Made by a program: the position numbers and the translations under genes. The notes beneath the pieces are model-generated. The model saw only the letters and a program-made list of their open reading frames with translations, was not told where the DNA came from and made no database searches. DNA of 51,347 bases from contig NZ_NHOY01000106.1 in assembly GCF_002252755.1 (NCBI RefSeq), positions 25,484 to 76,830 of the forward strand, in the 5' to 3' direction. Below are positions 5,933-26,958 of the stretch, one piece after another; the first letter of the stretch is position 1; each line of letters opens with the position of its first letter. Source of the DNA: Halorubrum sp. Hd13 (GTDB lineage: Archaea > Halobacteriota > Halobacteria > Halobacteriales > Haloferacaceae).

Positions 5933-7687
5933 ATGTCGAACGTCACGATTCGGCAGCCCGTCAGGGCGGCCGAGCTCACCGAACTCGATAGCACACCCGA
6001 GGACGACGGCGGTCTGACGGAGGCCGAACCCGCCGACGTGTTCCCCCAGTCGGTAGCCAGCGGTGGTCCGACCCCGGAGTCGGTCATCCTCTGGACTCGA
6101 ATCAATCCCGAGCGATACGACCCGTCGGAATCGCTGTGCCTCGAGGTCGCGACTGACCCGTCTTTCGAAGACGACCCCAGGGTATTCGAGTTCGACGGCC
6201 CGGGGGTCAAACCGCCCGACAACTACACCGTTCGCGTCGACCTCGATCACGACGCCGTCGACGCGGACTCGGTCTATTACTACCGGTTCGTCTACCGCGG
6301 AGTGCGGAGCAACACCGGTCGGTGTCGGACGCTGCCGGCCGAGGACGGCGAACCCGAATCAGTTCGGTTCGGAGTGCTGAACTGTCAGGACTACCAGAAC
6401 GGCTACTTCGGCGCGATGGCGCGGCTCGCGGAGACGGACGTCGACTTCGTGTTGCATCTCGGCGACTACATCTACGAACACGTCGCCGAGGGCGACCCGG
6501 GGGGCGTCGGTGGCCCGTACCCGGACCGACGGATCGAGCTCCCGGACAGCGGCACGCGCCCGATGAGTCTCGACGACTTCCGGCGCATCTACGAGACGTA
6601 CAAGACCGATCGCCACCTCCAGCGACTTCACGAGCGCCACACCGTGATTCAGACGTGGGACGATCACGCCATCGCCAACGACCGGTACTGGGACTACGAC
6701 GCCGGCGCACCGGTGTTCCCCGACCACCCGTGCGGCGACGTCCCGGAGTTCACGCGGTACCTCACCGCCGTCGGGATCCAAGCGTGGTGGGAGTTCGTCC
6801 CCGGACGCATCGAGTACGACCCGAGCGCGGACCGCCTTCACGAGTCGTTCGACCTGTATCGGAGCCTGCGGTTCGGCGACCTCGTCACGCTCGCGCTGAC
6901 GGACGAGCGGCTTTTCAGAAGCGAACCGCGGTCGTGGCCGGCGGAGCTGCTCGACCCGTGGTCCGAGCCGGACACCTCGCGGACGATGCTCGGGGAGGCC
7001 CAGCGCGGGTGGCTGCGCGAGACCTTCCGCGAGAGCGAGACGGTGTGGACGGCGTGGGCCAACGCGGTGCTGTTCAAACGACTCTACTTCCTGGGCAAGG
7101 GGTTCATCTTCTGGGAAGACGCCTGGAGCGGGTTCGAGTCCGAACGACGGGAGATCGTCGACACCCTCACCGCGGTCCGAGAACGGGGTGACACGAACGT
7201 CGTGACGCTGACCGGGGACATGCACATGACGCTGGCCGCTCGCCTCCGGAACGAACGGCAGGGCGACACGCCGGTCGGCGTCGAGTTCATGACGCCGAGC
7301 GTGACGAGCGTCAATCCCCGCGAAAGAGCCACCGAGATCGGGCAGCGGGTCGGACTGGGACGCGAGTTCGGACGGTTCGTCTCGTGGCTCGTCAGGAGCG
7401 TGTCGACGTCGCGGGCGGCCGACTACCTGTCCGCTACCGGATTCCTCCCGGAGTTCGCGCTCTCCGACGGCTCCCACTGGGGGTTTTCCGTCATCACGTT
7501 CTCGCGCGAGTCCTGTCGATGGGACGTGTACTGGGTGGACAAGACGGACGATTCGGCGACCAGCGAGTGCCGGTCGGCCTATCGCGTTTCCGTCCCGGCG
7601 GGCGAGTATACGATTCACGAACGTCGTGAAGCGGGTCCAGGTCCTGACGGCGATGCGATCGGTACCGAGCGAAGCAACCCCGACTGA
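5933..7687 (+). CDS. phoD: PhoD-family alkaline phosphatase/phosphodiesterase
   Basis: A 584-aa metallophosphoesterase of the PhoD family, which hydrolyses phosphomono- and diesters using Fe/Ca-type metal centres. The N-terminal PhoD domain begins at FPQSVASGGPTPESVILWTR (37-56). Catalytic motifs are NCQDY (150-154), HLGDYIYE (175-182), TWDDHAIANDRYWD (241-254) and LTGDMHM near residue 423. Family members are usually exported by the Tat pathway. This protein has no twin-arginine signal or hydrophobic segment at the N-terminus, so as annotated it would stay in the cell. Either the start is misplaced or this is a cytoplasmic variant. The gene converges on tRNA-Gly. Confidence 0.88.
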   Translation: MSNVTIRQPVRAAELTELDSTPEDDGGLTEAEPADVFPQSVASGGPTPESVILWTRINPERYDPSESLCLEVATDPSFEDDPRVFEFDGPGVKPPDNYTVRVDLDHDAVDADSVYYYRFVYRGVRSNTGRCRTLPAEDGEPESVRFGVLNCQDYQNGYFGAMARLAETDVDFVLHLGDYIYEHVAEGDPGGVGGPYPDRRIELPDSGTRPMSLDDFRRIYETYKTDRHLQRLHERHTVIQTWDDHAIANDRYWDYDAGAPVFPDHPCGDVPEFTRYLTAVGIQAWWEFVPGRIEYDPSADRLHESFDLYRSLRFGDLVTLALTDERLFRSEPRSWPAELLDPWSEPDTSRTMLGEAQRGWLRETFRESETVWTAWANAVLFKRLYFLGKGFIFWEDAWSGFESERREIVDTLTAVRERGDTNVVTLTGDMHMTLAARLRNERQGDTPVGVEFMTPSVTSVNPRERATEIGQRVGLGREFGRFVSWLVRSVSTSRAADYLSATGFLPEFALSDGSHWGFSVITFSRESCRWDVYWVDKTDDSATSECRSAYRVSVPAGEYTIHERREAGPGPDGDAIGTERSNPD

Positions 7688-7689
7688 TA

Positions 7690-7757
7690 GGGTTCAAACC
7701 CCTTTCGGCGATTTCTCTCACTTCGTTCGAGAAATGCGCCGGCCGGGATTTGAACCC
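7690..7757. repeat. Inverted, hairpin-centred copy of the tRNA-Gly 3' arm
   Basis: Right after the tRNA-Gly discriminator base a hairpin forms from ATTTCTC (7711-7717) and GAGAAAT (7729-7735) with an 11-nt loop. The stem continues outward: CGGCG (7706-7710) pairs with CGCCG (7737-7741) inside the tRNA acceptor strand. Further out GGGTTCAAACCCC (7690-7702) is nearly the reverse complement of the tRNA T-arm at 7744-7757. So the flank is a partial mirror image of the tRNA 3' end. It could act as a two-way terminator between the convergent tRNA and phosphatase genes. The same plan is seen at tRNA-Leu. Confidence 0.75.
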
Positions 7758-26294: not shown

Positions 26295-26362
26295 GGGCGC
26301 CGGCGCGGTCGACGCCCCCGTAGCGACAACTATTTTTGACCGACTCGGGTACGGTAGTCCGC

Positions 26363-26447
26363 GCGCGGGTTGCCGAGCCAGGCCAAAGGCGTAGCGCTTA
26401 GGACGCTATCCCGTAGGGGTCCGCCGGTTCGAATCCGGTCCCGCGCA
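26363..26447 (+). tRNA. tRNA-Leu (anticodon TAG)
   Basis: An 85-nt class II tRNA with a long variable arm. Acceptor strands GCGCGGG (26363-26369) and CCCGCGC (26440-26446) pair fully and the discriminator is A26447. The anticodon stem is TAGCG/CGCTA with loop CTTAGGA, giving anticodon TAG (CUA/CUG leucine). The T arm is GCCGG-TTCGAAT-CCGGT. The variable arm TCCCGTAGGGG forms its own stem. No CCA and no intron are encoded. Its final 24 nt are repeated downstream. Confidence 0.95.
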
Positions 26448-26813
26448 TGCTTCTCCGAGCAGTTCGCGAGGAGAAGCATCACGACGAGGATTCGAACCCT
26501 GCAAGACGCAGCGCGAGCGAAGTGAGCGACCGTCTTGCTCCGGTTCGAATCCGGTCCCGCGCACTGAGGAGCGAAGCGACGAGGGAGCAGGAGCGGTTCG
26601 AATCCTCCCAGACGCGCGCAGCGAAGCGAGCACGTCTGGTTCCGGTTCGAATCCGGTCCCGCGCATGCTTCTCCGAGCAGTTCGCGAGGAGAAGCATCAC
26701 GACGACGATTCGAACCCTGCAAGACGCAGCGCGAACGAAGTGAGCGACCGTCTTGCTCCGGTTCGAATCCGGTCCCGCGCATGCTTCTCCGAGCAGTTCG
26801 CGAGGAGAAGCAT
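26424..26813 (+). repeat. Array of tRNA-Leu 3'-end copies and nested hairpins
   Basis: The last 24 nt of tRNA-Leu (26424-26447: T arm, acceptor strand and discriminator) recur identically at 26540-26563, 26642-26665 and 26758-26781, with periods of 116, 102 and 116 bp. A further forward T-arm core, GGTTCGAATCC, lies at 26595-26605. Inverted cores lie at 26488-26498 and 26707-26716. Between them are perfect stems: ATGCTTCTCC/GGAGAAGCAT (26447-26456 with 26470-26479; repeated at 26665-26697 and 26781-26813), GCAAGACG/CGTCTTGC (26501-26508 with 26531-26538; repeated at 26719-26756), and CCAGACG/CGTCTGG (26608-26614 with 26633-26639). The inverted cores extend these into stems of about 20 bp. No open frame or integrase is within the units. 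See findings. Confidence 0.95.
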
Positions 26814-26958
26814 CGCTATGAGGTGTGTCGGGGACGGGAACCAGGCCGAACGGAGCGACAACGGAACGAACGACCGCTTTGCTCCGGCCGAGGTCACCAC
26901 TTGAGGGCGACTGTTCGAGAGGCGACGGAACCCCGCGACCGACGCCGGGAGCCCGCGC
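26814..26958. other. Spacer after the tRNA-Leu array
   Basis: This 145-bp stretch contains CGACCGCTTTGCTCCGG (near 26873-26889), which resembles the CGACCGTCTTGCTCCGG end of the array units but lacks the T-arm core, so it may be a decayed unit. The convergent hypothetical gene ends at 26959. No gene is seen. Confidence 0.4.

Follow-up and report, generated by a model that had tools for sequence, protein, structure and literature searches.

The window analysed here is a 51,347-nt stretch of DNA from Halorubrum sp. Hd13, in which a tRNA-Leu(TAG) gene is followed downstream by an array of three units of the form T-H1-T'-H2, where T denotes a copy of tRNA nt 52/53-73 and T' an inverted T-loop core, with H1 and H2 standing for hairpins. 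The last 24 nt of the gene (CCGGTTCGAATCCGGTCCCGCGCA) were found in identical copies ending at 26447, 26563, 26665 and 26781, with periods of 116, 102 and 116 bp, reproducing the coordinates and counts of a first-pass annotation of this DNA. That annotation had also recognised seven T-arm cores, two of them inverted and a fifth reading forward. The count (the four T copies plus the cores between them at 26488, 26595 and 26706) and the inverted orientation of the cores at 26488 and 26706 were confirmed; however, the core at 26595, which does read forward (GGTTCGAATCC), is most readily explained as an inverted core with a single-base deletion (GGATTCGAATCC to GGTTCGAATCC), given that its flanking H1 and H2 enclose a normal inverted core in sister species (loci L045 and L033). 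The features are as follows, with the basis of each assignment in brackets.

26363..26447, + strand: tRNA-Leu(TAG), anchor of the array, with nt 52-73 at 26426-26447 (ARAGORN, Rfam RF00005)
26426..26447, + strand: T0, functional copy of tRNA nt 52-73 (repeat comparison)
26448..26487, + strand: H1 hairpin of unit 1, TGCTTCTCC..GGAGAAGCA type (comparison of Leu units)
26488..26498, - strand: T' of unit 1, inverted T-loop core, GGATTCGAACC (repeat comparison)
26499..26541, + strand: H2 hairpin of unit 1, CCTGCAAGACGCAG..CGACCGTCTTGCTC type (DNA fold; genome-wide model match, 3.4e-16)
26542..26563, + strand: T copy 1 (nt 52-73), identical (repeat comparison)
26564..26594, + strand: H1 hairpin of unit 2, CTGAGGAGCGAAGCGACGAGGGAGCAGGAGC type (comparison of Leu units)
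26595..26605, - strand: T' of unit 2, probably minus one base, reading as a forward core (comparison with L045 and L033)
26606..26643, + strand: H2 hairpin of unit 2, CTCCCAGACGCGCGCAGCGAAGCGAGCACGTCTGGTTCC type (model match, 1.5e-12)
26644..26665, + strand: T copy 2, identical (repeat comparison)
26666..26705, + strand: H1 hairpin of unit 3, same type as in unit 1 (comparison of Leu units)
26706..26716, - strand: T' of unit 3, CGATTCGAACC (repeat comparison)
26717..26759, + strand: H2 hairpin of unit 3, same type as in unit 1 (repeat family D1; model match, 2.7e-15)
26760..26781, + strand: T copy 3, identical (repeat comparison)
26782..26813, + strand: terminal H1 hairpin behind the last T copy (T-H1 is the end of most arrays)
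26838..26887, + strand: probable decayed T'-H2-T relic (family D3; 72% identical to the H2 of unit 3)
7668..7734, - strand: truncated unit behind tRNA-Gly(TCC), consisting of H1 TTTCTCGAACGAAGTGAGAGAAATCGCC, a T'-like core GGGGTTTGAACCC and the start of H2 CTATCAGTCG (L007 compared with the complete unit of L095)

Units 1 and 3 form a 140-nt repeat with 99% identity, and the H2 module of unit 2 was also found behind other tRNAs. The array gave no Rfam match other than the tRNA itself. As previously stated, the units (~100-140 nt) carry neither a gene nor an integrase; only spurious ORFs were found, which contain repeated 'GTGFEPE / GGFEPEPDV' motifs (window 26330-26782, - strand; L476:3830-4297) and are a likely source of false 'hypothetical proteins' in haloarchaeal annotation.

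Unit anatomy and distribution

Comparison of 173 arrays revealed a direct repeat of exactly tRNA nt 52-73 with sharp limits on either side, the identity between tRNA and copy being ~0.9-1.0 within this segment and at background on both flanks. In tRNA-Phe, nt 52 is C, yet A or T stands in the copies, indicating that the copied part begins at nt 53. The 5' strand of the T-stem (nt 49-51) is not among the copied nucleotides, and the T copies therefore cannot form a T-arm, which disfavours the earlier suggestion that pseudo-tRNA tails act as decoys for RNase Z or the CCA-adding enzyme. The consensus of T' is GATTYGAANC, against GGTTCRAATC for the T core. Its Y position matches nt 57 of the cognate tRNA in 156 of 171 arrays, and in tRNA-His, whose T-loop deviates (TTCGATT), T' deviates likewise. 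Complementarity of T' is usually limited to nt 52-62, which led us to reject copying of all 22 nt through a dumbbell or rolling hairpin; the complement of the cognate acceptor barely exceeds that of non-cognate ones (4.82 versus 4.33), and it is complete in one exceptional locus, L101.

The intervals between cores had been described as hairpins, in agreement with our folding of T'-H2-T as single-stranded DNA (-21.8 kcal/mol, z -4.1), which gave two stems, an outer one of 11 bp and a second of 8 bp, separated by a 2 x 3 internal loop and capped by a variable tip. Among 29 diverse H2 sequences, seven pairs showed double changes (51 such cells), a level reached in none of 500 shuffles, and pairing dropped from 93% to 20-56% when the partner was slid by 1-3 columns. 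The internal loops are conserved class-wide, and a T.T mismatch is retained in 20 of the 29 sequences, so the stem is not merely a palindrome being perfected. A tRNA splicing motif (bulge-helix-bulge) was considered and rejected, as the internal loops inferred from the fold face each other, which is the wrong geometry.

The T..T'..T pattern was present in 316 of 391 Halobacteria genomes, always with the cognate tail, as judged with a T-loop pattern that favours GGTTCRAATC tRNAs, whereas a reversed control pattern gave no match in the same 391 genomes. The same unit is thus carried by other tRNA genes and other haloarchaea, and the concern that the array might be an assembly artefact absent from relatives does not hold. 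Since arrays are also present in single-contig genomes and the reversed control is empty, chance and assembly error are excluded as its origin, and the observation is confirmed as real and general in haloarchaea. In a draw across the phylum, the pattern occurred in 45 of 53 Halobacteria and in none of 242 other Halobacteriota. It is sporadic in Nanoarchaeota (3 of 279 genomes from the phylum to which a Woesearchaeota match belongs); in Woesearchaeota and relatives (L107, L136 and L275), the T..T'..T layout lies behind tRNAs with a long variable arm. In a scan of 84,980 named species, nearly all of the matches listed were haloarchaea. A Kushneria match (L108) proved to be an ordinary tandem tRNA-Val and the one viral-contig match an ordinary tRNA cluster; the phage collection gave no match to the array pattern, a loose apical-motif scan of viral contigs yielded only noise, and the single plasmid match was an interrupted tRNA-Cys gene. 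No published description of such arrays was found in the open-access literature searched.

Of the 45 tRNA genes in the genome to which the window belongs, 16 are followed by one or more copies of the cognate tail; upstream copies were absent save for the tandem duplicate of one tRNA gene, and non-cognate tails were almost absent. Searched with a covariance model of T'-H2-T, haloarchaeal genomes each yielded 11-34 hairpins, whereas five other archaea yielded none. Among the matches listed for three complete genomes, 77 of 82 H2 hairpins lay downstream of a tRNA (within 900 bp on the same strand), at 46 of 129 tRNA genes, so that about a third have one or more of these type-A hairpins.

Turnover of units and exchange of modules

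Unit number, which the first-pass annotation had singled out for comparison between related strains, does differ among relatives, with 0, 1, 2 or 3 units at orthologous tRNA-Leu(TAG) loci of one genus. Four of the Leu loci share a downstream gene, which lies ~63, 170, 255 and 510 bp behind the tRNA, tracking the number of units, and the loci of Halorubrum lipolyticum and H. xinjiangense (L128 and L141) have the module order and terminal flank seen at other loci of the window's genus. Among 43 Leu units, 24 combinations of H1 and H2 occur, drawn from five main types of the former and six of the latter. Pairs with more than 85% identity across different tRNAs number 86 for H2 and three for H1, and an identical 41-nt H2 is present in L105 and L058. 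Genome G307 has nine occurrences of a single H2 tip, every one of them in a tRNA array, behind seven different tRNAs, with each array keeping its own T and T'. The comparison of loci establishes, at the level of sequence, that units are gained, lost, tandemly duplicated and reassorted and that H2 moves between tRNA types; no single insertion event was caught in any strain pair compared.

The interrupted tRNA-Cys gene is located on a plasmid of Haloarcula halophila, where hairpin-T'-H2 is inserted at nt 53/54 and only CGGT is repeated; Phe and Tyr pseudo-tRNA copies are interrupted at the same point. This gene belongs to a cluster of 23 divergent tRNA genes (L441, NZ_CP119561, 4858-9673) that adjoins genes for a type B DNA polymerase and a TROVE-domain protein. 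Seven T'-H2 units, six of them near-identical, were observed behind one tRNA gene of genome G372 (C1:1877974-1878860; L480), which suggests recent unequal expansion.

T-loop edges, folding strand and a proposed mechanism

When copies of the last 13 nt of tRNA genes were collected with no T-loop required, their left limits were bimodal, at nt 50-53 (class I, edge 52/53) and at nt 60/61 (class II), a lesser peak at nt 58 being due to class I copies that differ at nt 57. Nt 52/53 and 60/61 are both edges of the T-loop (nt 54-60), and the copy limits place the points of exchange at these two edges. A tandem-GA/GNA hairpin motif, used as a proxy for the folding strand, lies on the top strand in 170 class I cases and on the bottom strand in four; in class II it lies on the bottom strand in 17 clear cases and on the top strand in three, which are chance 13-mer matches. 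The Fisher p of 6e-18 for this link between edge and strand is overstated because the arrays are related by descent. Four of the class II loci (L247, L254, L257 and L287) combine copies of nt 61-73 with an acceptor strand in inverted orientation, and their hairpins lie on the other strand.

Because the motif switches strand with the class, the exchange edge is the 5' edge of the T-loop on the folding strand in both classes. By analogy with integron attC sites, for which folded, strand-selective recombination has been described (PMC2727003), this is the geometry that single-strand exchange on a folded hairpin would predict. T-loop exchange by a tyrosine integrase is supported for phage Ms6, on duplex DNA (PMC1762012), and cutting by an archaeal integrase at the loop borders has been reviewed (PMC8371274).

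Starting from the anatomy and the pattern of mobility, both of which are seen directly in the loci, we infer an enzyme and a single-strand step. With close to even confidence, we propose that a tyrosine recombinase acting in trans exchanges folded single-stranded hairpins at the T-loop of tRNA genes, in the manner of an integron; that the units are gene-less mobile cassettes of haloarchaea, their single-stranded hairpins being exchanged by such a recombinase at tRNA T-loops, is put forward rather more tentatively. One strand of T'-H2-T would fold as attC sites do, and the recombinase, supplied in trans, would join it to the duplex T-loop of the tRNA gene, which would serve as an attI-like partner. 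The folded strand would be cleaved at the 5' edge of the T-loop, and the cassette-borne nt 53-73 would restore the tRNA and push its former 3' end downstream, so that a row of old tails would grow behind the gene with each round. Reassortment of H1 and H2 may reflect exchange at T and T', and perfect tandem copies may arise from later unequal recombination. The weak point of this scheme is that the outer half of T' is cognate even where H2 is shared, a pattern that moving whole cassettes from one tRNA to another leaves unexplained, so exchange inside the core or later conversion would be needed; an exchange in mid-core, in which outer halves stay and inner halves travel with H2, would explain cognate T and T' together with a shared H2. 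Beyond the repeat limits, the edge-strand link, the covariation of H2, its position behind tRNA genes and the turnover and sharing of modules, two further observations were counted in favour of this mechanism, namely the plasmid tRNA-Cys gene interrupted at nt 53/54 by hairpin-T'-H2 alone, and T'-hairpin-T structures ahead of bacterial tyrosine recombinase genes on five viral contigs.

Alternative explanations and related systems

Stacked att sites left by tiny non-autonomous elements come closest among the three ideas of the first-pass annotation. The T-loop-edge starts and nt 73 ends of the copies, the empty and multi-unit sites and the presence of H2 behind different tRNAs agree with this idea, but an integrase-bearing element does not fit, as the units hold no gene, the direct repeats of true proviruses integrated at these tRNAs are different, and the edge-strand link indicates a hairpin substrate. 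In its conventional version, in which tiny double-stranded elements reduced to attP arms were inserted serially by a T-loop (class II) tyrosine integrase, we regard it as unlikely, albeit deserving of weight. The repeat limits, from the T-loop to nt 73, do resemble those of tRNA-integrated elements; haloarchaeal provirus repeats span nt 59-73 (tRNA-Pro) or nt 57-73 (tRNA-Ala) and a Haloquadratum prophage is bounded by a 22-nt tRNA duplication (PMC3119063), and 5-14 tyrosine recombinases are encoded per genome. However, the proviral attP arms examined are without T'-H2, other elements at these tRNAs have 33- or 55-nt repeats, and a double-strand reaction predicts neither the edge-strand link nor the conserved H2 mismatches.

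The 55-nt repeat, from near the anticodon loop, belongs to 15-17 kb elements at tRNA-Leu(TAG) (G022 C3:1262237-1279750 and G024 C102), so that two types of recombination site are present on one tRNA; the 33-nt repeat belongs to a 15-kb element at tRNA-Val(CAC) (G000 C16:6181-21406; L443) encoding an integrase and a 1294-aa methyltransferase-like protein. No recombinase gene was linked to the arrays, except where a provirus had displaced an array, and no integron integrase (TIGR02249) above cut-off was found in six genomes, both of which count against the proposed exchange. H2 was also considered as the attP of a haloarchaeal integrase, as two hairpins remote from tRNA lie beside integrase genes. 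Both are displaced arrays, pushed away by elements of 19 kb and 28.6 kb at tRNA-Pro and tRNA-Ala, and their adjacency to integrases is therefore no evidence.

An origin in replication or repair, in which slippage and template switching at trailer hairpins and at the T-loop palindrome TTCGAA would have enlarged the arrays and gene conversion would hold the tails identical, with no enzyme or element, is improbable. It would suit the alternation of T and T', both cognate, and the perfect tandem duplications (the 140-nt repeat of the window and the six near-identical units of G372), and haloarchaea are polyploid, but an H2 with class-wide conserved internal loops and a retained T.T mismatch, near-identical H2 behind different tRNAs, and the lack of the pattern in the 242 other Halobacteriota, though the T-loop of their tRNAs is identical, all speak against it. 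Template switching as first suggested likewise leaves the conserved internal loops, the covariation and the sharing across tRNAs unexplained. Slightly harder still to credit is a structured RNA, in which units transcribed with the tRNA would be trailers that control its maturation or act in trans. Covarying stems, strong predicted RNA folds and the strand asymmetry towards the tRNA-sense strand are compatible with an RNA, whereas the variation from 0 to 3 units at one locus within a genus, the class II motif on the other strand, copies that cannot form a T-arm, the absence of any Rfam match besides tRNA, and the tRNA-Cys gene interrupted by H2 are not. Insertion of T'-H2 by a transposase or Cas1-like integrase, with staggered cuts duplicating nt 53-73 (or 61-73) and the tails thus arising as target-site duplications, would account for always-cognate tails with a shared H2 but is very improbable, given two repeat lengths (21-22 and 13 nt) with a common right and different left limits, a repeat of only ~4 nt at the interrupted tRNA-Cys, and T-H1 instead of T alone after the last unit.

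The nearest known systems to the proposed hairpin exchange are integron attC arrays and T-loop integration into tRNA genes, and the arrays fail defining features of both. Like integrons, they have a fixed anchor site beside the array, appear to favour one strand and shuffle modules, and their inverted core boxes close a covarying hairpin with an unpaired spacer, a second stem and a variable tip, its length of 59-80 nt falling inside the attC range of 57-142 nt. Unlike integrons, the haloarchaeal cassettes are gene-less, no IntI passed the cut-off, the core is GGTTCRAATC / GATTYGAANC instead of GTTRRRY / RYYYAAC, and the cassette has to restore the 3' end of its anchor, a tRNA gene. With T-loop integration by Ms6 and haloarchaeal proviruses they share apparent exchange at the 7-bp T-loop, a regenerated 3' end (the tRNA here is intact) and a displaced tail marking the far end, but the units are ~100-140 nt long, several are stacked, they carry an inverted core and hairpins but no integrase, and their repeat limits differ from those of proviruses at the same tRNAs. 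The PATEs and MITEs known from Haloquadratum are also short, non-coding, palindrome-bearing haloarchaeal repeats, related to IS605-type transposons and to known transposon ends, respectively (PMC3119063); unlike the arrays, they are not confined to tRNA 3' ends and have no cognate tRNA tails, and dispersed targets do not fit the 77 of 82 hairpins behind tRNA genes among the matches listed. CRISPR arrays combine identical repeats with unique spacers, whereas the spacers of the haloarchaeal arrays are modular palindromes common to several loci. The 178-bp tandem repeats of Escherichia coli tyrT also lie downstream of a tRNA gene and begin with its 3' end, but they represent one locus and one repeat type, with no inverted core or class-wide hairpin family.

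The pattern points to a type of very small mobile DNA, not described before, whose recombination site would be the tRNA T-loop. If this is true, such a family would be present in about four fifths of haloarchaeal species and act on essential genes, and single-strand hairpin recombination would extend from integrons to tRNA genes and to a gene-less system, with the cell's tRNA set as anchor and the tRNA 3' end as cargo. It may also account for the way in which tRNA 3' ends are maintained, exchanged or shielded at sites used by so many integrating viruses. The mechanism is open to direct testing, because some haloarchaea can be manipulated genetically.

The five viral contigs mentioned above (L313-L316 and L319; GC 0.61-0.65) are probably Bifidobacterium prophages, and carry a perfect T'-hairpin-T, beside a tRNA-like tail, 40-60 nt upstream of tyrosine recombinase genes (PF00589). 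Here too inverted T-loop cores close a hairpin next to the tail, but each contig has a single site beside an integrase gene, with a perfect palindrome and no array; inverted T-loop cores may have been put to use independently here, at an attachment site.
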